A stretch of DNA of 64,000 nt from the IMG/VR virus record IMGVR_UViG_3300020180_000017, positions 1 to 64,000 of that record; one strand, given 5' to 3'. Under the pieces are notes generated by a model. That model did no database searches, was not told where the DNA came from, and saw only the letters and a program-made list of their open reading frames with translations. The stretch is from a virus. Both the position numbers and the translations under genes were made by a program. How positions within the stretch are numbered: position 1 is the first letter of the stretch; every line of letters starts with the position of its first letter. This document shows, in pieces, positions 3,001 through 54,172 of the stretch.

Positions 3001-6000
3001 CTAATTTCATCATTACTATTATCATTGTAAAAATATTCACCATTTCTTTCATATAAAAAATCTAATATTGTATCATTTATTTTTGATTTTCTTATTTCAG
3101 GCTTAACTAACTTACCATATTTTTGATCAAGTATGTTATTTACACCATCAATAATCTTTTTAGTAGAATAAGGAATATCTTCATCATATTCAAGTCTAAA
3201 ATTATTACCTGTTAGTACAATACCAAGCTCATTGTGATGGTGAGCTAAATTGTCTACTACAGCAGCTAAATTAGACTGAACAGTGTTTATGCTATTTAAA
3301 GAAGGATATTTAGTATAACTAACACCAAGTAATTCAGATTTTTTATCTTTATTTACCTTTTCAGAAGCATCCCAAACACTTCCTGAATATACATCTTGAT
3401 TAGAAGCCCAAAGAATATCCTGTGATTGTGGATTAATTTTAAATTTAATCTTACCTCCACCCCCTTCTAAGTGTTCTATTTTTCTATCAACAGGTTTAGT
3501 AATAGCTGAAATAGCAAATTTACCCCCAGCTTTTTCATTATCTTCTATATGATGTAATAGGTTTTGCATCATAAGGTTTACATCAAAATTAGAATAAGCT
3601 CCTACAATAGAAACAAATTCTTGTCCTCTACTATATATTTCTTCTGGATTATATTGAATGTTATTTACTTTCTTCCATTCTTCTATTATTTCTTTTGATT
3701 GTTCATATTCTTTATTTTTTTCTATAAAATATTTAACTGCATAAATAGAACTATTTTTACCCATATACCTATCAAAAGAACCTTCACTTTCTCTTATTTT
3801 ATAAGTAATAGTATAATTATTATCTTTAGCAAATTTTGTATATTGTTCTTTTATATATTCCCAATCTTGGGATAACATTTTACCATCTTTAATTACATTA
3901 GTTACATTTGATGTAGATATATATCTATTAATATCGTTTGGGTCTTTAAAACTTGGTTCTTCTATAAAATCTTTTTCATTTTGTTTAAAATATTTCCAAC
4001 CTCCATATATATAACTATCTACATTTTTGTAATCTTGTAATTTCAAGTTATTTAAATCAAGCTCTTTAACATCTTGAGCTAATTTACTAACATGATTACT
4101 TGCTTCTTGATAAGTTTTATGTTTAACATTATCAGGAGTTGTATATTCTACTTCATATCCTGGAAGTATAAGTTTACTATTACTATAAGCTAATAAATCA
4201 GAAAGTTGTCCTAATGTCATATTATCAGGTAACTTATCTATTTCTACTTCTTTTTGATTTAAAAGACTTCTAATAAAGGCTTTCATTTCTTTAAGTAATC
4301 TTTTAAGTAAAGATATTAACTTACCATCTTTTACATTATCAAGTTTATTAGCAGTCATTAAACCAAGTAATTCTACTAATGCTTCTTCTTGTTGTTCTTC
4401 TAATGTATACTTTGAATTTTCTTTTATGTATTCTTTAGCATCTTGTTCATTAAAAAAAGCAGTGTGTAAAACATTATTTTTATAGACTTCTTGACCTTTT
4501 TGAGTATATATATTTTCTTTATTTACATAATCTTTTTTAATCCTATCCAATACTTCTTTACCTACACCTGTTTCAAGTTCTTTAAGAAGGTTTTGATATA
4601 ATTGTGAATATTCTTTTGATTGAAAAAATGCTTTTTTATATTCTTCTTCTGTTATAATTTTACTTTCCTTTGTATAATTTCCTCCAATATCAGTTTCATC
4701 TCGATACTCCATATTATTTAAATAAAACTTACTTAAATAATCATTTTTATATTTTTCTCCTTTTTCTTTATATTTAATAGCTCTAATAATAGGATGTCCT
4801 AGTATTTCATGTATAGCAGTATCTAATGTAGCATAAGCTAAATTAATATAAGCAACACCATTTTCTATTTTACCTTTATAATTCTTAGTTTTATCAGCTT
4901 CAAATCTAATAGGCATACCTATTCTATCTGACATTGTAGCTGCTAAATCCCTGATGGTTTTTTCAGAGGCTATTATCCCTTCATTAGAATTAGTTTGATT
5001 TTTTTGATATTGAATTTTTTTACTACTTAAAGCATTAATACCAAGTTTATCTCCTACTAATCTAGTTACTTCACCTTGATATTCTGTATTTATACTTTGT
5101 ATAAAATTTGAAACTGTATTAATTTGATTTCTATTATTAATAATATTTCTTATTTTAGAAAAAGTTTCTGGAGAGTTTAAGCTATAGCTATTGGCTACAA
5201 AATCAACTTGCATTTTATTTTGTAGGTAGTTATTACTTGCTATGATTTGTGCTATTCTACTATTATTTTCTTTAACACCTATATACTTTGTTAAAATACT
5301 ATTCTTTTTTTCAATGGATTTTTCAGATTGTTCTAAGTAATTAACTTTTTCTATTTCATCTATTGCTATTTTTGCGGCTTTTAAAATGTCCTTTTTATAA
5401 TTACTTTGCAATTCCTTATCTAAATCTTCTAATGCACTTATTAATATTTTTTCACTTTTGTCAAAAATCATTGATTTTTCAGAATCTTTAGAAAATGAAT
5501 TATGAGAATAAATTAAATAATCACTTAATAAATCTTCTACATTATTAACCAAATTGTCAATTTCATTTTTATAATTGAAAAAAGTAGATTTTGTTTTTAA
5601 ACTGTTTATAAAATCTTTTGTTTGAGTTAATACATCTTTATCAGGTATTAATTGTTCAATAGCATATTGTATTTCGCTATTTAGAAAAACTTTATAGGAA
5701 GGCTCAATTTCTTTTAAATCATTAATGTTTTTATTTTGTTCTGGTGTTAGTTTATTATTTTTATTAACAAATGCTTTAAATTCTGCTATTGTTTCTGGGG
5801 AGTTTAGTATTATTATTTGTTCAGGTTCAAATGCTACAATAGAGCTGGCTAAAATTTCAGGATAACCATCTTGATCCATGTCAACAGATAATGCGCCTAC
5901 TACCCCGTCTTGTTGATTTTTTTCAATAAGTTCTTTAACTTCTATATAGTCTTTTTTAGATCCATTTCTTTTTAATCTATTAAAATAATCATTACCACCC

Positions 6001-7204: not shown

Positions 7205-10200
7205 TGACAAGGGTTTATATCTTGTGATCCAACATTAATTCCAATTTCTTTAAAGAAATCTGTTAAAGATACAAAACTTCCTTCAGATATTTTATAAATA
7301 ATTTTATTTAAGTCAAGATTATACTTTTGAATTGATAAAATAGTACTTTTTAAAGCTTCCATACTAAAGCCAATATGTTCTGAGTTTTCATTATTAAAAT
7401 CTTTTTCTCTACCTTCTTGTTCTTCATTTGGTATTTGAATTAAGTAGTCTTTACTAGATTCTACAACTACATCTTGTAATTTTGAAATGTAGTCAATTTG
7501 TTTTTTATCACTTTTAACTTTTTTTATAACAATTACGTCATCAAGAAAAAATATTTCATCAGAACTTACTTTATCAAACGTTTTACCATTTCTAGTATAA
7601 GAAATTACAGAACCGTCTGAATCTGTAATCATATGATAAGTTTTACCATTTACGGTGTTATCAGCAATAATTTCATAATTACCATTTTCTAATAAATGTA
7701 ATTTTTTAATTAAAATTTTATGTTCATACGAAAGTCCTTTTTCATTTTCACCTACATCAAAAGAAAATATTTTACCTACTATATTATTTTCAGTATTATC
7801 CCAATAATCTATTTCAGCTTGCTTTTCAACTTGTTTTTTTAATTTAAGCTGTTTATTTTCTTCATCTACTTTTAAACTTTTTAAATAATCTTCATTAAAT
7901 TGTTCCTCAGTTATAGCATTGCTTACTTTTATTTTTTCCCAATTAACACTACCAAAAGGAGCAGCTACATAATATTTACTTCCATCTTCATTTGTATTTC
8001 TACTATATGAAATATTATCTATATAAAAACTATATGGTATTTCTTTATTGCTTTCTTGATATACAGGAATATAGTCAATATTTGTTTGTGAAGAATTTAA
8101 TAAATTATTCCAATCATATTTATTAATTAAATAATCTAATGCTGTAGCGTGAGAAGGTTCACCAAGTTCTTTGTAATATAATAAAGGTTCGCCTTTTAAT
8201 TTTCCTGATTTTAATTGACTTACTATCCAATCTCTTTGCATATCCAAATCTACGGGGTCTACATCATTTTCTCCAAAAAAGTATACACCTGTTTCGCCTG
8301 TTATTATCCAATTAATATATTTTTCAACAGATTCTTTAGTGGAATTTGTTTGTATTAAATAACGTAATTTTTTATTTGATGTAAAAGGGTTTCCGAAATG
8401 TTGAGCACTTGATCCTGGCATAAAGTTTTGAGTATCTATTCTTGTAGTAACAATTCCATCATTTGTAAAAACTTTTTTTTCTTCTTTAAGAACGCCCCAA
8501 GGAATAATTTTTATATTTTCAGATTTTGTTTTATTACCTAATTGAGAATATATTTCATTAGGACTAATTACTTCATTTAAATTATTAATTTCAAATTCTC
8601 TATTAATAAAATCTTGAGAATAAATAACTTTTTGTTCTTCTGAAAGTTTATTCTTATATCTGTATAATTCAGTTACACTTTCAAATTCTTTTAATTTATT
8701 TACTATTTCTGGATTTCTATTAATTACTTTTAATTCTGTTTTTGGTTGTGTATTAGAAACTTCATTTACTGTATTTAAAACTATAGTATTAGGAATTTTA
8801 TTATTTATAATTTTTACAATTCCATCATTTGAATCTTTCATATTATCAAACCCAAAGTCACTATCAGAATGAATATCATCTAGTATTCTATTATTTCTAA
8901 TATCGTCTATTATTTTTTTTATTTCATTTTTATTATTAATAATACTAATATTATTTTCACCAGTTACTGTTAATAATTGTTCTTCCAAAACAGATGCCCT
9001 TTTATTATTATTAATTTTAATCAATAAAAAAGGATAATTTTTACCTATTGAATTTTGTCCAAGAGAAGTGTCTCCAACAATAAAATATTTATTAGCATAC
9101 TTCCCAGAATATCCACTAGAATAGTAGCTTATATTTTTAAATAATTTATTATTTTCTTTAAATTTATATTTATTATCTCTATTAATAATTTCTTTAGGAT
9201 TAACTTCATTTAAAGAAGTTATATTTTCAGGTGTATATTCTCTTTGAGAAACTTTATTAGATGTATTTAAAACTTTATCTAATTCTTCTCTCCAATTAGG
9301 ATTTGCCATATTAATTGTAGGAATACCTTTCCTTCTAGCCATTTCTACAGCTTGTCCTGTGCCTCCTTTTGGTCTTAATGGATTGGAAGTTTCTTCAGCA
9401 TAAAATAAAACAAAATCAACAGGTGTATCTAAATTTTCTCCAAATATTTGATTAGTATTTCTAGCCATAAGTTTTTTACCCCCCGATTTTAAAGCTGAAG
9501 GATTTGGATGAATTTCTTCCATTACTTTCATTTCTCTATTACCTATTACTCCTGTTACTCCAAATAAATTCTTTTTACTTGTACCAGCAGAAAAAGCTCT
9601 ATCTGCTCCTTCTTCATCTAAACCAACTTGATTACCATGTAGTTTACTTAATTTTTCAGATTCTTTTTTTCTTTCATCATAAACCTTTTTATCATAACTT
9701 TCAGTGGCAGGAAAAGTTTTTCCTGTATTTAGTGTATATCTTCTCTCTAATTCTTTAGCAAGTTCTGTCATTTGAGAAAGAACATTTGCTGGAGTTTCTC
9801 TACTACCTATTCCTGCATATGTAAATGTAGGAATACTAGATTTAAAAGGTAATTTGTTAAATTCTGGTTTATTAATATCTATTTTTATAGGATTAACTTC
9901 ATTTAAAGAAGTTACTTCTTTTTCATTTATCACTGCTTGAGCCATTCCATTATAGTAATCTTTTAATCCTACATTATCTTGTTTTCCTCTATTAACACTA
10001 AATTGAGGGTTAAATTTATAGAATTCTAAGTAGAAATTAGTGGCTAATCCTAATTTTTTATTACTGGATAAAAGTTGGTAATTTTTAAATGCTAATTCAA
10101 ATTCTGGAATTAATATTGATAGAGGCAGTAGTGAAGTAATGTTAAATCTATTTTGTGAAAATCCTCCTTGTTTAAAAGCTAAATAAGTAAATGATTTAAT

Positions 10201-41599: not shown

Positions 41600-42829
41600 T
41601 TAAAAACAAACATTAAAAAAAGTTAGGAGTTCTTCTTTTTGTAAATTAGAAATATTAATATTTTTGTTCTTATTTAGAAATATCATCCATTCAGATACTA
41701 CTTTATTTACTTTCCAACTTTCAAAGTAATTTACAATAGTATTTTTAAATTGCTCTAAGTCAAGTTCTACTGCTTCTAACTCATTATACTCTAACCATTT
41801 AAATATTCTATTTTTAAATCTTTCACATCCTTTATACCCGTCATCTTTCCATTTTCCACCTTCAAAATAATGATTAATAAACATCAAATACATTCTTAAT
41901 GTTTGAGGATCGTAATCTATGGGGTTTACTGTATTATTAAGTGACTTACTCATTTTATTACCATCCTCTCCTAATATCATCCCTTGATGTATTACTTTAA
42001 GGAATGGTTCATCAAAATCTATGTAACCTATATCAAATAAAAATTTAGTTATAAACCTAGCATATATGAGATGCATACAAGCATGTTCATTTCCTCCAAC
42101 ATACAAGTCAACAGGTCTGTTTTTATCATATTCAATAGTATAAAAAGAACTATCAACAAATGTATCTAAAGTATCTTCTTCTCCATTTACAGGTATTGAA
42201 CACCCCCATTTTCTTTGCCTACTTACACACCAATCAGTTAAGTTATGTAGCCAATGTATTTGTTGTTTTTTAGTTTTTTCTGGGTAATCTACTTTGTCAA
42301 GGTCATTAATCAATCTTTCTTTGTAATCTGTAATTTTAAAAAACCACTGATTTAATTCTTTTTTAATTACTTCAGTATTGCATCTTTCACATTTTTTATC
42401 TTTTACTTGTTCTTTAGCTAAAACAGTTTCACATGAAATGCAATAATCTTGTTCTCTATTAGCCTTATAAGCTAATCCATGATCTAATAGTTTATTGAAT
42501 AACCACTGAGTTCTTTCTTGATATTCTTTAGAATGTGTTGAAAGTTTATATTCAAAAGAAGTATTCATTCTTTCCATTTCTTTTGAAAAAGCCACTATAT
42601 TTTCTTCAGTTATTTCTTTTGGATCTCTATTTACTTTTTTAGCGTAATTTTCTGTTGGAAGACCAAAAGCGTCAAAACCAAAAGGTTGAAATATTTCATA
42701 GCCTAAATACTTTTGTATTTTACAATAACTATCTACAATAGAATAATTATAGTAATGTCCTACGTGAAGATTTGCTCCACTTGGGTAAGGAAACATTACA
42801 GTTACATACTTATTTTCTTTTTTTATCAT
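41600..42829 (-). CDS. Minimal leucyl-tRNA synthetase lacking the CP1 editing domain
   Basis: This 409-residue protein aligns by eye with the class I synthetic core of bacterial LeuRS: HVGH at 22-25 (HIGH motif), FGFDAFGLPTEN, a zinc knuckle with C130, C133, C147 and C150, NQWFFKITDY, DWCVSRQRKWG, DTLDTFVDSSFY, YVGGNEHACMHLIYARF, and KMSKS at 292-296. The segment that normally holds the roughly 200-residue CP1 editing domain is absent: QIHWLHN runs straight into DWCVSRQR near 192-206. The leucine-specific insertion before KMSKS and the C-terminal domain are also missing, leaving about 110 residues of helical anticodon-side fold. Usual LeuRS length is 800-950. All catalytic motifs are intact, so aminoacyl-adenylate chemistry is plausible. 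It has an A-rich leader and follows a structured RNA. Its substrate RNA is unknown. Confidence 0.93.
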   Translation of the reverse strand: MIKKENKYVTVMFPYPSGANLHVGHYYNYSIVDSYCKIQKYLGYEIFQPFGFDAFGLPTENYAKKVNRDPKEITEENIVAFSKEMERMNTSFEYKLSTHSKEYQERTQWLFNKLLDHGLAYKANREQDYCISCETVLAKEQVKDKKCERCNTEVIKKELNQWFFKITDYKERLINDLDKVDYPEKTKKQQIHWLHNLTDWCVSRQRKWGCSIPVNGEEDTLDTFVDSSFYTIEYDKNRPVDLYVGGNEHACMHLIYARFITKFLFDIGYIDFDEPFLKVIHQGMILGEDGNKMSKSLNNTVNPIDYDPQTLRMYLMFINHYFEGGKWKDDGYKGCERFKNRIFKWLEYNELEAVELDLEQFKNTIVNYFESWKVNKVVSEWMIFLNKNKNINISNLQKEELLTFFNVCF

Positions 42830-42862: not shown

Positions 42863-43147
42863 CCCTGCAAGTGTTTTCACTTTGGGTTAAAGATTATTAG
42901 AGTAATAACATAATCTTTAAGTTAACCTATAAACTCCCACACCCCTGTTTCGACTTTATTAATTCTTGGGAATTAAGTCTGTGTTTTATGTGGAGGAATA
43001 CGCTTTTTCCCAAGAATTACTTGCAGGGCATTGTTGTGACGGTAACACAGAGCAACTATTTTACGTATCCTATACCAGTAAGGCCAAGTTTCCACTCCTT
43101 ACTGAGTTTATAATAACTATCTTTTATTGACTCTAGGACTAAAAGAT
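42863..43147 (-). ncRNA. Large structured RNA directly upstream of the LeuRS-like gene
   Basis: No reading frame of note crosses this stretch, yet it holds a nested set of strong inverted repeats. They are 43140-43147 with 43119-43126 (8 bp); 43097-43104 with 43076-43083 (8 bp, 13-nt loop); 43019-43028 with 42863-42872 (10 bp), which closes a domain; within it 43007-43018 with 42961-42972 (12 bp, 34-nt loop), stacked directly on the closing stem; and 42910-42927 with 42885-42897 (13 bp with a 5-nt bulge). The 34-nt loop can also pair with the unpaired strand near 42933-42941, a likely pseudoknot. It begins just after a terminator and ends 33 nt before the LeuRS ATG, so it could be a 5' leader or a separate RNA. 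The minus orientation is inferred from the neighbours. It does not match tRNA, tmRNA, RNase P, T-box or group I signatures that I can recall. Confidence 0.75.
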
Positions 43148-43162
43148 GGAAAAAACCCGAAT

Positions 43163-43192
43163 AAAAAAAACCCCTTGTATTTCTACAAAGGG
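43163..43192 (-). terminator. Intrinsic terminator between leader RNA and structured RNA
   Basis: On the minus strand a 9-bp stem (CCCTTTGTA/TACAAGGGG, one G-U pair) closes a GAAA tetraloop and is followed by eight T residues. It lies about 120 nt after a consensus promoter and before the structured RNA, so expression of the LeuRS gene from that promoter needs read-through. Confidence 0.9.
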
Positions 43193-43305
43193 CTAATTTA
43201 GACAGGAGATTGAGAATACAGTTGTTACACTGTAAAGATATGAAATTTATTTTAATTACTAATTATATTTTTGCACTAACTCCTGTCTAAGAAGCATTTT
43301 GCTTT
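43193..43305 (-). ncRNA. Short leader or small RNA between promoter and terminator
   Basis: The promoter at 43312-43343 and the terminator at 43163-43192 delimit an RNA of about 140 nt. It contains a small hairpin (AAGCA/TGCTT at about 43289-43301), a 9-bp long-range stem (43280-43288 with 43200-43208) and an inner ACAGT/ACTGT hairpin (43218-43233). A 12-codon frame overlaps the first strand of the long stem. It is either a free small RNA or an attenuation leader for the downstream RNA and LeuRS gene. The ends are estimated, not known. Confidence 0.6.
43259..43297 (-). CDS. Possible 12-aa leader peptide with leucine codons
   Basis: A minus-strand frame MLLRQELVQKYN starts about 8-10 nt after the predicted transcription start. 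Codons 2, 3 and 7 are leucine, and codons 4-6 form the 5' strand of the 9-bp stem. That layout resembles an attenuator leader peptide for leucine supply, but a frame this short can occur by chance and has no clear ribosome-binding site. Confidence 0.3.
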   Translation of the reverse strand: MLLRQELVQKYN

Positions 43306-43311
43306 ACATAA

Positions 43312-43343
43312 CAAATGTATACTTTTAATTAATATCCACCAAA
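43312..43343 (-). promoter_or_regulatory. Consensus Bacteroidota promoter for the synthetase island
   Basis: On the minus strand TTTG (43343-43340) is followed by a 20-nt spacer and TACATTTG (43319-43312), an exact match to the TTTG-N19/21-TAnnTTTG form used by the primary sigma factor of Bacteroidota. The predicted start is near 43305. The match suggests the island is read by the host polymerase. Confidence 0.8.
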
Positions 43344-43451
43344 TTTATTTGTATTATTTTACTACTTAATAATTCCTCCTAAAGTTGTAGTAATCCATAA
43401 AGGAAGGTGAGTTGAGCTTAATGTTATAGTGTATTTCATACTGCAAATATA

Positions 43452-43487
43452 CAACAAAAGAGGGGCCAGTATAGAAATACTACCCCT
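43452..43487 (-). terminator. Probable terminator of the long structural operon
   Basis: It lies 22 nt after the stop of the fibronectin-like gene. AGGGG/CCCCT and AGTAT/ATACT form a 10-bp stem with a small internal loop and a 4-nt loop, followed on the minus strand by CTTTTGTTG. The T run is short. The stretch between it and the promoter at 43343 contains no feature I can support. Confidence 0.6.
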
Positions 43488-43509
43488 GAAAAACAAAACA
43501 AAACAAATT

Positions 43510-44673
43510 TTAAGGATAATTTATGTAAAAACTCTTAATATCCGACTTAGGTACGCCAACACAAGGATAAGATTCTACCCTAATAGTATGATAACCTTTA
43601 TTTAAATTTAATAGAGAGACACTTGCAGCCACTTGAGGTTGTGCAGGTGACGTAATCAAGATATTATCTAAATACACTCTAAATGTAGTTTCTACACTTG
43701 TCCACGAAGTTGTTGCAACGTCATTAACTATTACTGGTGTATTAACTACTATAGAAGAGCATCCAGAAGTTACTGAAAGAGACGTAGTTGTAGAGCCAAA
43801 AGTTACAGAAGCTACTGACCCACCATTGTTACAATAAGCTTGTATTTTAAGCCAGTAAGGTGTTGATGGGGATAATTCTGAGAATGTAGCAAAAGGTACA
43901 ACAAGGTTAGCTTGAGTTGATCCTGGAACTAGTACAGTTAATCCTGCATCAGTGTAGAGAGAAACAGTCCAAGTAGTGTTATTACTACCAGAAACCCAAG
44001 TATAAAATAATGAAGTAGATGTAATACCTATTGCAGTTACACCTGTTATTTCACTGCAATTAGATAAAGAAGCTACACAATTTAATACAGATGTGCAAAA
44101 TCCAGGAAGAGCAACTAAGTAGTTTAAAGCACATTGCCAGTCTATTGTTGCTTGTATTTTTTCGTTAAAACCTGTATTTACTTTTGAAAAAGTAATGCAT
44201 TGAGTGCTTAACAATTTATCAAATAAATAGCTTGTAGTTGTATCTGTTGCAGATATTTTAACTTTTTCATCAGGTGGAGTTGATACAGCTCCAGTTGCAG
44301 TCACTTGTACTTTTTCAATTCCTGAAACTGTTATAGGACTTAATAAAATACCAGTACCAGCAGTTAACATTGTTGAAAGATACTCTGGTGTTGCATCAGA
44401 ATTGTCTCTAAGTACTTTTCCTTTATAAATGTTATAATCACATTTCCAAGATTCTAATTTTCCAACAAGATCATACAGAGTTTCATTTGTTTCAAAATCA
44501 AGACAAGTAAAAACTATATTAGTGCCATTTACACTTTTTTCTTTTAACTGTATACAGCCAAATGGAAGTTCATTGTCACATCCCATTATAGAATAGTCAG
44601 GAAGATTACAAGTGCATAGATTATCACATTGATCACATCCACATTTATTGCAAGGATTTGTATTAACACACAT
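43510..44673 (-). CDS. Cysteine-cluster protein with fibronectin-III-like repeats (fibre or adhesin-like)
   Basis: This is a 387-residue protein. The first 40 residues hold about ten cysteines (CVNTNPCNKCGCDQCDNLC and more), a dense cluster suited to metal binding or disulfides. The middle is a beta-rich domain, and residues about 200-290 read like a fibronectin type III fold (SLFYTWVSGSNNTTWTVSLY, then LSPSTPYWLKIQAYCNN). A second Ig-like strand set follows to the C-terminus. It is the last gene of the structural operon, where fibres and receptor-binding accessory proteins are common. Its exact place on the virion is unknown. Confidence 0.65.
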   Translation of the reverse strand: MCVNTNPCNKCGCDQCDNLCTCNLPDYSIMGCDNELPFGCIQLKEKSVNGTNIVFTCLDFETNETLYDLVGKLESWKCDYNIYKGKVLRDNSDATPEYLSTMLTAGTGILLSPITVSGIEKVQVTATGAVSTPPDEKVKISATDTTTSYLFDKLLSTQCITFSKVNTGFNEKIQATIDWQCALNYLVALPGFCTSVLNCVASLSNCSEITGVTAIGITSTSLFYTWVSGSNNTTWTVSLYTDAGLTVLVPGSTQANLVVPFATFSELSPSTPYWLKIQAYCNNGGSVASVTFGSTTTSLSVTSGCSSIVVNTPVIVNDVATTSWTSVETTFRVYLDNILITSPAQPQVAASVSLLNLNKGYHTIRVESYPCVGVPKSDIKSFYINYP

Positions 44674-51712: not shown

Positions 51713-52477
51713 TTAAGCAGTAGGGTTGACCCCTACTACGTATGTAAATTTAAAATTTCCTGCTGATTTCCTATTCCCTTTTAACACTCTGCTAATGTGT
51801 GAAATTTTAATTTCCAAACTATTTGCAGCTTCTGTAAGTGATGAAAACTCTTTTAAAATATTTCCATTTAAATCTAATTGAAGTATGGATTTTTTAGAAG
51901 TGCTCGCAGAAGATAATTTTAATTTATCTTCTTTATTTAACGTAGTTCCTTTGTTGTGAACTGTGTGTGTTTTAAAATATTCTTTTTTATTACTGGATAT
52001 TTTTTCTTTTGTCTCTTCAGATTGTATTTTACCTTTGTGAAACTCAGACATTTTTTGTTTATACTCTTCACTTCTTTTCTTTCCAGTATTAGCATTTACA
52101 ATTTTAGCTACGTGATCTTTTGAAAGTTTCTTACCTGTGTGAGCAACGGACATTTTAAGTTTGGATTCTTCACTATGCTTTCCACCTTTACCTCCTTTTT
52201 GAAGATTTAATAGTAAGATACCTGACTCTCTATACTGTTCAATAAAAAATATTTCGTAATTATCTAAAACTTCTTGAGAAACATCTTTTGGTAATTCTTG
52301 AACTATCTCCATTCTATGATTTGTAGAGCCATATTTCATAAAAGAGTTAAATAAAAGAACTTGGTACTTATGTCTGCTTGGAGAACATGTATATCTATAC
52401 AACCTGTTTTCAAGATCCCAACTCTGCCCAATATAAACTTTTTCACTTGGACTTGTGATTTTGTAGATTCCTACCAT
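51713..52477 (-). CDS. Free-standing GIY-YIG homing endonuclease (NUMOD3/NUMOD1)
   Basis: This 254-residue protein has an N-terminal GIY-YIG nuclease (GIYKITS, then VYIGQS, then the arginine in NRLYRY). NUMOD3-type repeats follow around 100-165 (HSEESKLKMS, then HTGKKLS, then GKKRSEEYKQKM). A C-terminal NUMOD1-like helix-turn-helix (ILQLDLNGNILKEFSSL, then ISHISRVLKGN) completes the DNA-binding part. Such genes spread by cutting the matching site in an allele that lacks them. It sits between the capsid and a neck gene, outside any intron, and has its own host-type promoter. Confidence 0.95.
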   Translation of the reverse strand: MVGIYKITSPSEKVYIGQSWDLENRLYRYTCSPSRHKYQVLLFNSFMKYGSTNHRMEIVQELPKDVSQEVLDNYEIFFIEQYRESGILLLNLQKGGKGGKHSEESKLKMSVAHTGKKLSKDHVAKIVNANTGKKRSEEYKQKMSEFHKGKIQSEETKEKISSNKKEYFKTHTVHNKGTTLNKEDKLKLSSASTSKKSILQLDLNGNILKEFSSLTEAANSLEIKISHISRVLKGNRKSAGNFKFTYVVGVNPTA

Positions 52478-52495: not shown

Positions 52496-52526
52496 CAAAG
52501 ATACAGTGGATAAGTGATACTACAAA
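52496..52526 (-). promoter_or_regulatory. Consensus Bacteroidota promoter for the homing endonuclease
   Basis: TTTG (52526-52523), a 19-nt spacer and TATCTTTG (52503-52496) match TTTG-N19-TAnnTTTG exactly on the minus strand. The -33 box overlaps the last codons of the capsid gene. The endonuclease ATG is 19 nt after the -7 box. Confidence 0.8.
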
Positions 52527-54172
52527 GTAAAGTTTGATAGTTTAGGGTTCTTAGGAACCAATTTTAAAAGCTTCGACGCATCTTTCACCCAAGGAGTACT
52601 TACTCTTTTGGTAAAGAACATGCTAAAACCTGTTGCATTTCCAGAACTGTCATGTCCACTATAACCATTCATACTTTTCTTAAAGAATGGATGTGCTTCT
52701 GTTCCAGCAACGTGATGCCAAGTAGTTTCTCTTTCATCTCTAATATCTCTTAGTATCTTAATATTATCTTTGCTCATAACATAATCATCAATTATGAATG
52801 AATAAGAGGATAATCTATATCCTGTATGTATATATGGATTCAATAGATCATTTGCAAACGTAGGGTCAAAACTTGGCTCATATTCAAACCTAAACTCTAC
52901 TTGACCAGGGATAACTAATCTTGTATAGAAAGGTTTAACTGCGCCAAGACCTGTACGTGCAGTACCTTCAATTATACCTAAAGGTTGAGCTTGTTGCTGG
53001 TAACCTCCAAGAGAATTTACAGCGTACCTTTCAATCAAAGGAGATACTAGTTGCAAACCTCCTTTACCTGTACGAACTCTTACAATTGGTTCTACACCTT
53101 GTTGAACCAAAGGCATTTTACCAGAAGTAAATTTACGATAAGCATTAAGTAGTGTATCCAGGCTAAAGGTATTTAAATCAAAAATATCTTTATAACCATT
53201 TTTGTCTAATTGATGGTAAATACCTATTGGTAGTCTACCTTTATCAAGACCGTCTCCACCACCAACTACACCACCCTTACCAAACATTATGTAATTACTG
53301 TCTTCGTGAGCAAGCATTTTAAAACAAATATCATCCAATGAATATACTAATGCAGATGCTTTTACATTACCATTACCACCCGCAGCTCTGTATTCATCCA
53401 TGTACTTAATCTGAGGATCAATTGGGCTATCCATGAAAAGATATTCTGTAACAGACTCTTTCATTTGAGCCAATGTCTTAGTGCCAATATCAGATAAAGA
53501 CATACCATTAGAATATCTAACAGCTTCTCTAGTTAAATTATAATGTATTTGTAGTTCAGCAGTGGCTAGTTCTTTTAAATACTTCCTTTCAGAAGCACCT
53601 TTAAATTGAAAACTATCCCAATTTTGACCAAACTCAGAACTCCGAGCAGAAGCCATTTTAAACATCTTACTACCAGTAGTCAAAAATTCAGAAGGTATAA
53701 ATTTATCTTCTGTCCAACCAGAACCTTGAACTATTTTAAAGCGGTAAGCCCATTTGTCACCCATTTCTTTTACACCAGTAACTTCAAGTTCGGGAGAATT
53801 AGAAAGTTTGTCAAATGTTACAATACTACCGTGACCACCCAAAGCTCCATTGGAAAGTATCAAAGAAAATTCTTCACCACCTTTACCAATTTGAATTTGC
53901 TTATTTGGATTTTCTATAATCTTAGTAGATGTATCTGAAGCTGTTGGCAAACTAAAATAGTATGCTCCATCAACATAAGTAATGTCATTGTTAATGACAA
54001 AACCAGCATACATAGGAATATCCTTTACATTTTTATTTGCCCAAAGATCAACAAGACCAAAATCTGTTGGTTTTCTATCACTGGCAAGTTTGAAAATGGA
54101 GGTTTTATCTAATTGAGATGACACTACACCAAGAGTTGTTTCTTTAATGAGTGTACCAGGAATTAAAGCCAT
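52520..54172 (-). CDS. Major capsid protein
   Basis: This 550-residue protein begins MALIPGTLIKETTLGVVSSQ and contains a long HK97-like pattern: a glycine-rich E-loop region, a spine helix around residues 200-240 (LKELATAELQIHYNLTREAV) and a beta-rich C-terminus. Position after portal and scaffold genes, length and overall sequence fit the crAss-like major capsid protein. The fold call is from context and pattern; no structure was compared. Confidence 0.85.
   Translation of the reverse strand: MALIPGTLIKETTLGVVSSQLDKTSIFKLASDRKPTDFGLVDLWANKNVKDIPMYAGFVINNDITYVDGAYYFSLPTASDTSTKIIENPNKQIQIGKGGEEFSLILSNGALGGHGSIVTFDKLSNSPELEVTGVKEMGDKWAYRFKIVQGSGWTEDKFIPSEFLTTGSKMFKMASARSSEFGQNWDSFQFKGASERKYLKELATAELQIHYNLTREAVRYSNGMSLSDIGTKTLAQMKESVTEYLFMDSPIDPQIKYMDEYRAAGGNGNVKASALVYSLDDICFKMLAHEDSNYIMFGKGGVVGGGDGLDKGRLPIGIYHQLDKNGYKDIFDLNTFSLDTLLNAYRKFTSGKMPLVQQGVEPIVRVRTGKGGLQLVSPLIERYAVNSLGGYQQQAQPLGIIEGTARTGLGAVKPFYTRLVIPGQVEFRFEYEPSFDPTFANDLLNPYIHTGYRLSSYSFIIDDYVMSKDNIKILRDIRDERETTWHHVAGTEAHPFFKKSMNGYSGHDSSGNATGFSMFFTKRVSTPWVKDASKLLKLVPKNPKLSNFTL

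Follow-up and report, generated by a model that had tools for sequence, protein, structure and literature searches.

The window analysed here is a stretch of 64,000 nucleotides (positions 1 to 64,000 of the IMG/VR virus record IMGVR_UViG_3300020180_000017) and is part of a 72.5-kb record. Its proteins place the source among the crAss-like phages, as a divergent member: Pfam CrAss_Ring_2 recognises tail ring protein 2, PHROG families were found for both portal and terminase, and the latter shares 22-24% identity with the terminases of Crassvirales. The predicted genes of the region lie on the minus strand. Between the gene 43510-44673, which has a weak fibronectin-type-III match, and a leucyl-tRNA synthetase (LeuRS) gene at 41600-42829 lies the largest non-coding gap found in the window, 43509-42830. 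This gap holds a structured RNA of 285 nt at 42863-43147 on the minus strand with a G+C content of 35%; the neighbouring non-coding sequence, 43160-43509, has 27%.

The LeuRS operon and its upstream region

The LeuRS gene (41600-42829, minus strand) encodes a mini leucyl-tRNA synthetase of 409 aa that lacks the CP1 editing domain. The product matches NCBIfam leuS_bact with an E-value of 3.6e-99, the editing insert being missing, and its best PDB matches are solved LeuRS structures; on the strength of these matches the enzyme is classed as a true, reduced LeuRS. The mini-LeuRS family (about 410-430 aa, no CP1 editing domain) is widespread in large phages, where its genes often adjoin tRNA-Leu arrays, and about 45 distinct viral genes were present among the matches listed, plus three in bacterial assemblies. 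L073, one of the relatives, looks like an intermediate: where CP1 would be, it retains a shorter insert of about 115 aa.

Read along the minus strand, the order of features is promoter, 12-codon ORF, 11-bp inverted repeat, terminator, structured RNA, 33 nt, LeuRS, three small genes and a second terminator. Before these, a hairpin with a U-rich tract can be read from the sequence after the upstream gene, at about 43487-43455, and a 25-codon ORF with a Thr-Thr-Thr run (MKYTITLSSTHLPLWITTTLGGIIK, 43439-43362) begins 4 nt downstream of the TATATTTG box at 43451. The promoter is of Bacteroidota type, with a full -33/-7 match (TTTG-N20-TACATTTG, 43343-43312, minus strand) to the published consensus (PMC7366714), and the minus strand of the window has four sites with this pattern, of which two are intergenic. 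Elsewhere in the window, a GIY-YIG/NUMOD homing endonuclease gene (51713-52477) has its own promoter match at 52526-52496, just after the gene 52520-54172. The 12-codon ORF, MLLRQELVQKYN* (43259-43297, minus strand), begins shortly after the predicted transcription start and has three Leu codons, only two of them adjacent and none in a run; its leader-peptide role is putative. Overlapping this ORF and standing directly before the terminator is the inverted repeat, UUAGACAGGAG/CUCCUGUCUAA (43198-43290, minus strand).

The intrinsic terminator (43162-43194, minus strand, hairpin 43194-43169) has the form AGCCCUUUGUA-GAAA-UACAAGGGGUU with a U tract after it. The structured RNA begins after it and ends 33 A-rich nucleotides before the LeuRS ATG at 42829, which agrees with the location given in the original prediction, and the start codon is not covered. 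No TAnnTTTG promoter was found between the terminator and LeuRS, and no terminator between the structured RNA and LeuRS; the downstream end of the operon is formed by a hairpin and U-tract terminator at 40814-40776. Classical attenuation at 43194-43169 was considered and rejected for want of an adequate antiterminator: no pairing in the window leader was found to beat the terminator, which persists in the best fold whether the upstream arm of the stem is included or left out, and the one alternative seen is weak and transient.

A pseudoknotted architecture beyond chance

All of the stems named in the original prediction, which were a 10-bp closing stem, a stacked stem of 12-13 bp, a bulged 13-bp stem and two flanking hairpins, were found on the minus strand where it had placed them, and the analysis, which rests on one sequence, adds a long-range helix that it had overlooked. 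Hairpin H1 (43119-43147) has 8 bp between AUCUUUUA and UAAAAGAU. The added helix, a (42928-43112), is a perfect 9-bp pairing of UAUAAACUC (43112-43104) with GAGUUUAUA (42936-42928). Hairpin H2 (43076-43104) pairs CAGUAAGG with CCUUACUG over 8 bp plus AGU-GGAA-ACU. The closing stem, d (42863-43028), has 10 perfect base pairs between CCCUGCAAGU and ACUUGCAGGG (43028-43019/42872-42863) and is crossed by helix a, forming a pseudoknot. Stem e (42960-43019), with 12-13 bp between UAAUUCUUGGGAA and UUCCCAAGAAUUA (43019-43007/42972-42960) and a 34-nt loop, stacks on d with no nucleotide between them. Hairpin hF (42885-42927), of 11 bp and a further 2 bp with a 5-nt bulge, carries in its loop the ORF ATG TTA TTA CTC TAA (MLLL*, 42911-42897).

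Helix a adjoins both H2 and hF with 0 nt between, C43104 being common to a and to the outermost pair of H2. Apart from this one shared base, the strands of the six helices of at least 8 bp (H1, a, H2, d, e and hF) are disjoint, and together they make up a single coherent architecture: a crosses d, and three junctions (H2-a, hF-a and e-d) have zero nucleotides. Two further pairings would involve the loop of e. The original prediction had proposed a pseudoknot between this loop and the strand near 42933-42941; a 7-bp pairing of UCCACAU (42994-42988) with GUGUGGG (42942-42936) can indeed be read from the sequence, but it is weak, includes two G.U pairs and competes with helix a at one end. The other, 8 bp between UCUGUGUU (43051-43044) and AACACAGA (42985-42978), also reaches into the loop. 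Both are possible and could be chance. The MLLL ORF in hF is suggestive of a leader peptide and weak as evidence, an MLLL-starting ORF arising in 1.4% of shuffles and some short LLL ORF in 10%.

The helices are far in excess of random expectation. Seven perfect helices of at least 8 bp, the six above among them, occur on the minus strand, against a mean of 0.86 in dinucleotide shuffles, and three of at least 10 bp, against 0.075; the longest has 13 bp (shuffle mean 7.6), and none of 400 shuffles reached any of the three observed values. Furthermore, three helices of at least 10 bp were found in 0 of the 2527 other 285-nt stretches in the window (overlapping, step 25). Chance is ruled out for the helix set as a whole, which bears out the original prediction that so many repeats were unlikely to be accidental. 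The z-scores of minimum free energy (MFE) are moderate (-2.4 for the minus strand and -3.6 for the plus strand), in part since pseudoknots are beyond the reach of MFE folding, and fold energy does not reveal the RNA strand. The plus strand is the less likely RNA: it is without supporting gene context, and energy is neutral on the choice. The phage mini-LeuRS gene is preceded by a real orphan structured RNA, with a fold far beyond chance.

Homologue searches and the leaders of related LeuRS genes

The original prediction had recognised no RNA class, and this held when both strands were compared with Rfam 15: no family matched at gathering thresholds, and the matches at E<=10 were sub-threshold and at chance level, several of them falling on the terminator and the upstream stretch. 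Searches by blastn gave only short matches in phages, with E-values no better than about 0.3 and the top match lying within a coding gene, and only chance-level matches in 14 LeuRS-bearing records. A covariance model of the three-way core, for which one sequence entered twice was the input and whose E-values are rough, had no significant match besides itself in 74 sources or 51 whole LeuRS-related records, none in 80 contigs picked by a 14-nt loop motif and none in about 300 bacterial genomes, all of one order. A 16-nt motif scan returned unrelated contexts only, a second copy of the RNA was not found within the 72.5-kb phage record, its last 8.5 kb included, and small ORFs in the element had no family matches. 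Searches with the upstream gene, a phosphoesterase-like gene and the gene 52520-54172 gave no close phage relative, and a terminase search gave one 6.3-kb contig (76%) that stops short of the RNA region. No close phage relative reaching the region was found, and the absence of homologues here is not evidence against the RNA. The RNA was found beside none of the about 45 listed viral LeuRS genes and three bacterial ones; LeuRS relatives of 54-71% identity are without it.

Four related viral LeuRS operons have leucine attenuators: a leader peptide containing 3-6 Leu codons in a row, and then a terminator. Three lie upstream of LeuRS, namely L048 (peptide MITTMNTNLLLLADS, about 9851-9970), L053 (MKQNAKSLLLLLL, about 9852-9985) and L015, which is LR745206.1 (MINNNVNILLLPLT, about 4695-4845); the fourth, L063 (MKTLNISTLLNNLLLLLR, 8834-8955), stands before a viral tRNA-Leu(UAA) gene that is itself upstream of LeuRS. 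By inspection, all four contain sequence able to pair with the first arm of the terminator. When 421 intergenic regions from these contigs were taken as a control, LeuRS operons were the only place where a Leu run preceded a terminator. Other relatives have tRNA-Leu genes directly upstream of LeuRS. Going by sequence, in several relatives LeuRS is under what looks like leucine-dependent control, and a literature search found no published account of leucine attenuators of viral LeuRS genes. Structured elements of other kinds were also seen. In L039, two lie in tandem in the 230 nt before its viral LeuRS gene (about 9780-9960), AACGAAT...ATTCGTT and AAGCAAATATGACAG...CTGTCTATTTGCTTTTTTT. Two viral contigs, L027 (near 6259) and L031 (near 5517), share GGUCGAAACAGGGGUGUAAGCCCUGU...CUGACGAGACC, a candidate type II hammerhead ribozyme directly before a gene.

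Possible roles and comparison with known systems

The original prediction offered two roles, a regulatory leader or an RNA partner of the enzyme. Position and the attenuators of relatives favour the former, and we tentatively prefer, at not quite even confidence, to regard the 285-nt element as a folded cis-acting 5' leader of the LeuRS operon mRNA. Given the order of promoter, terminator and gene, and the lack of a TAnnTTTG sequence after the terminator, the RNA is most simply part of this leader, made only on terminator read-through. Transcription would start at 43343-43312, pass the terminator at 43194-43169 and then yield the structured RNA, LeuRS and the three small genes. We infer that the element acts as RNA and in cis, most likely tuning expression of the operon, and that the signal is plausibly leucine or tRNA-Leu charging. 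The helix excess over both shuffles and the rest of the window argues for such a leader, as do its placement on the LeuRS strand 33 nt before the ATG with no intervening terminator, the full promoter (one of the two intergenic minus-strand matches) and the closure of the operon by its own terminator. The attenuators at the same position in four relatives indicate that the gene is preceded by a regulatory leader in several of them, and the window leader has the MLLRQELVQKYN and MLLL ORFs. Against it stand the lack of any homologue and so of covariation, the missing RNA beside the listed related genes, the lack of an antiterminator, the frequency of MLLL and LLL ORFs in shuffles, the unoccluded start codon and a size larger than that of the relatives' attenuators. 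That the element represents a new compact pseudoknotted RNA class (a nested double pseudoknot with stacked helices) controlling a viral aminoacyl-tRNA synthetase, either as a ribozyme or as a leader that senses translation or the status of tRNA-Leu, is a more speculative proposal and in our estimate rather unlikely.

The main rival, rather unlikely in our estimate yet a serious one, is a stand-alone structured non-coding RNA that is merely upstream of LeuRS and acts in trans. The compact pseudoknotted architecture with its zero-nucleotide junctions would suit such an RNA, as would its start after a terminator and its absence beside all other LeuRS genes searched, but there is no Bacteroidota promoter match between terminator and RNA, no terminator after the RNA, and no relative in anything searched. 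The inverted repeats might instead act as DNA, as a replication, packaging or protein-binding site, or their excess might be partly accidental. Fold energies that favour neither strand, the lack of covariation evidence and a location in the window's largest non-coding gap are compatible with this; we consider it improbable, however, since crossing helices with 146-167 nt between their arms and zero-nucleotide junctions resemble RNA tertiary architecture, and shuffles and window comparison exclude chance for the whole set.

Two further explanations concern the origin of the segment and its relation to the enzyme. A 10-bp direct repeat, GTTATGTAAA, at 43312-43303 and 42853-42844 flanks the terminator and RNA, which could mean that a segment of about 459 nt was inserted between the LeuRS promoter and gene, leaving the repeat behind; with the segment removed, the promoter TACATTTG would lie about 30 nt before the ATG, as in L073, L039 and L038. 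Such a repeat nevertheless occurs in 43% of shuffles of the region, and the segment has no terminal inverted repeats, no ORF of its own and no second RNA copy in the phage record, so that insertion is given little credence. Least probable of all is that the mini-LeuRS binds the RNA as a partner or as a mimic of its substrate, the one argument for it being adjacency. An obligatory partner is unlikely on grounds that the original prediction had itself named as refuting: related LeuRS genes are kept without the RNA beside them, the stems being absent at about 45 listed mini-LeuRS genes, many of which adjoin ordinary tRNA-Leu genes instead; the element also has no ARAGORN or Rfam tRNA match.

If the element is a leader, a structured RNA controls a phage-encoded aminoacyl-tRNA synthetase and, together with the leucine attenuators of relatives, this suggests that viruses adjust their own leucine decoding machinery to supply. 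A stand-alone element would be a pseudoknotted phage RNA outside the known classes, of a size that suits direct structural work.

Several known RNAs were compared with the element and do not fit it. It has no covariance-model match to a group I or II intron in Rfam, and no ARAGORN or Rfam match to a tRNA or tmRNA. For the hammerhead ribozyme, GUCGAAACA is present and the CUGANGA of the CUGANGA ... GAAA core is absent from the region, with no Rfam match. Bacterial RNase P RNA has what we take to be a similar helix order (P2-P3-P4-P5-P2'-P19-P4'), a lead only, but the conserved GGAAAGUCC and ACAGNRA are absent, P4 is not bulged and Rfam gives no match. The same nested double-pseudoknot skeleton is, as we assume its topology, found in HDV-like ribozymes, with P1, P2, P3 and P4 corresponding to a, d, e and hF; this too is a lead only. 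The order of helix crossing is equal, but the dimensions of P3 and L3 are wrong, P3 being about 3 bp with a short loop in HDV-like ribozymes and e having 12-13 bp with a 34-nt loop; furthermore, P1 of the element is without the initial G, a catalytic J4/2 is not recognisable, and there is no Rfam match.

GOLLD and ROOL are likewise structured RNAs known from phages, but they are much larger than the 285-nt element, for which Rfam has no match. T-box leaders share with it the character of a structured leader of an aminoacyl-tRNA synthetase gene; the assignment was rejected, there being no T-box Rfam match, no UGGNACC and no terminator after the element. The leucine attenuators of relatives are roughly 110-150 nt, whereas the window has its terminator ahead of the structured RNA and no convincing antiterminator, the first ORF is without a long Leu run, and 285 nt of pseudoknotted RNA follow. 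What the two arrangements have in common is the position between promoter and LeuRS operon, a short ORF that contains Leu codons, and a terminator.
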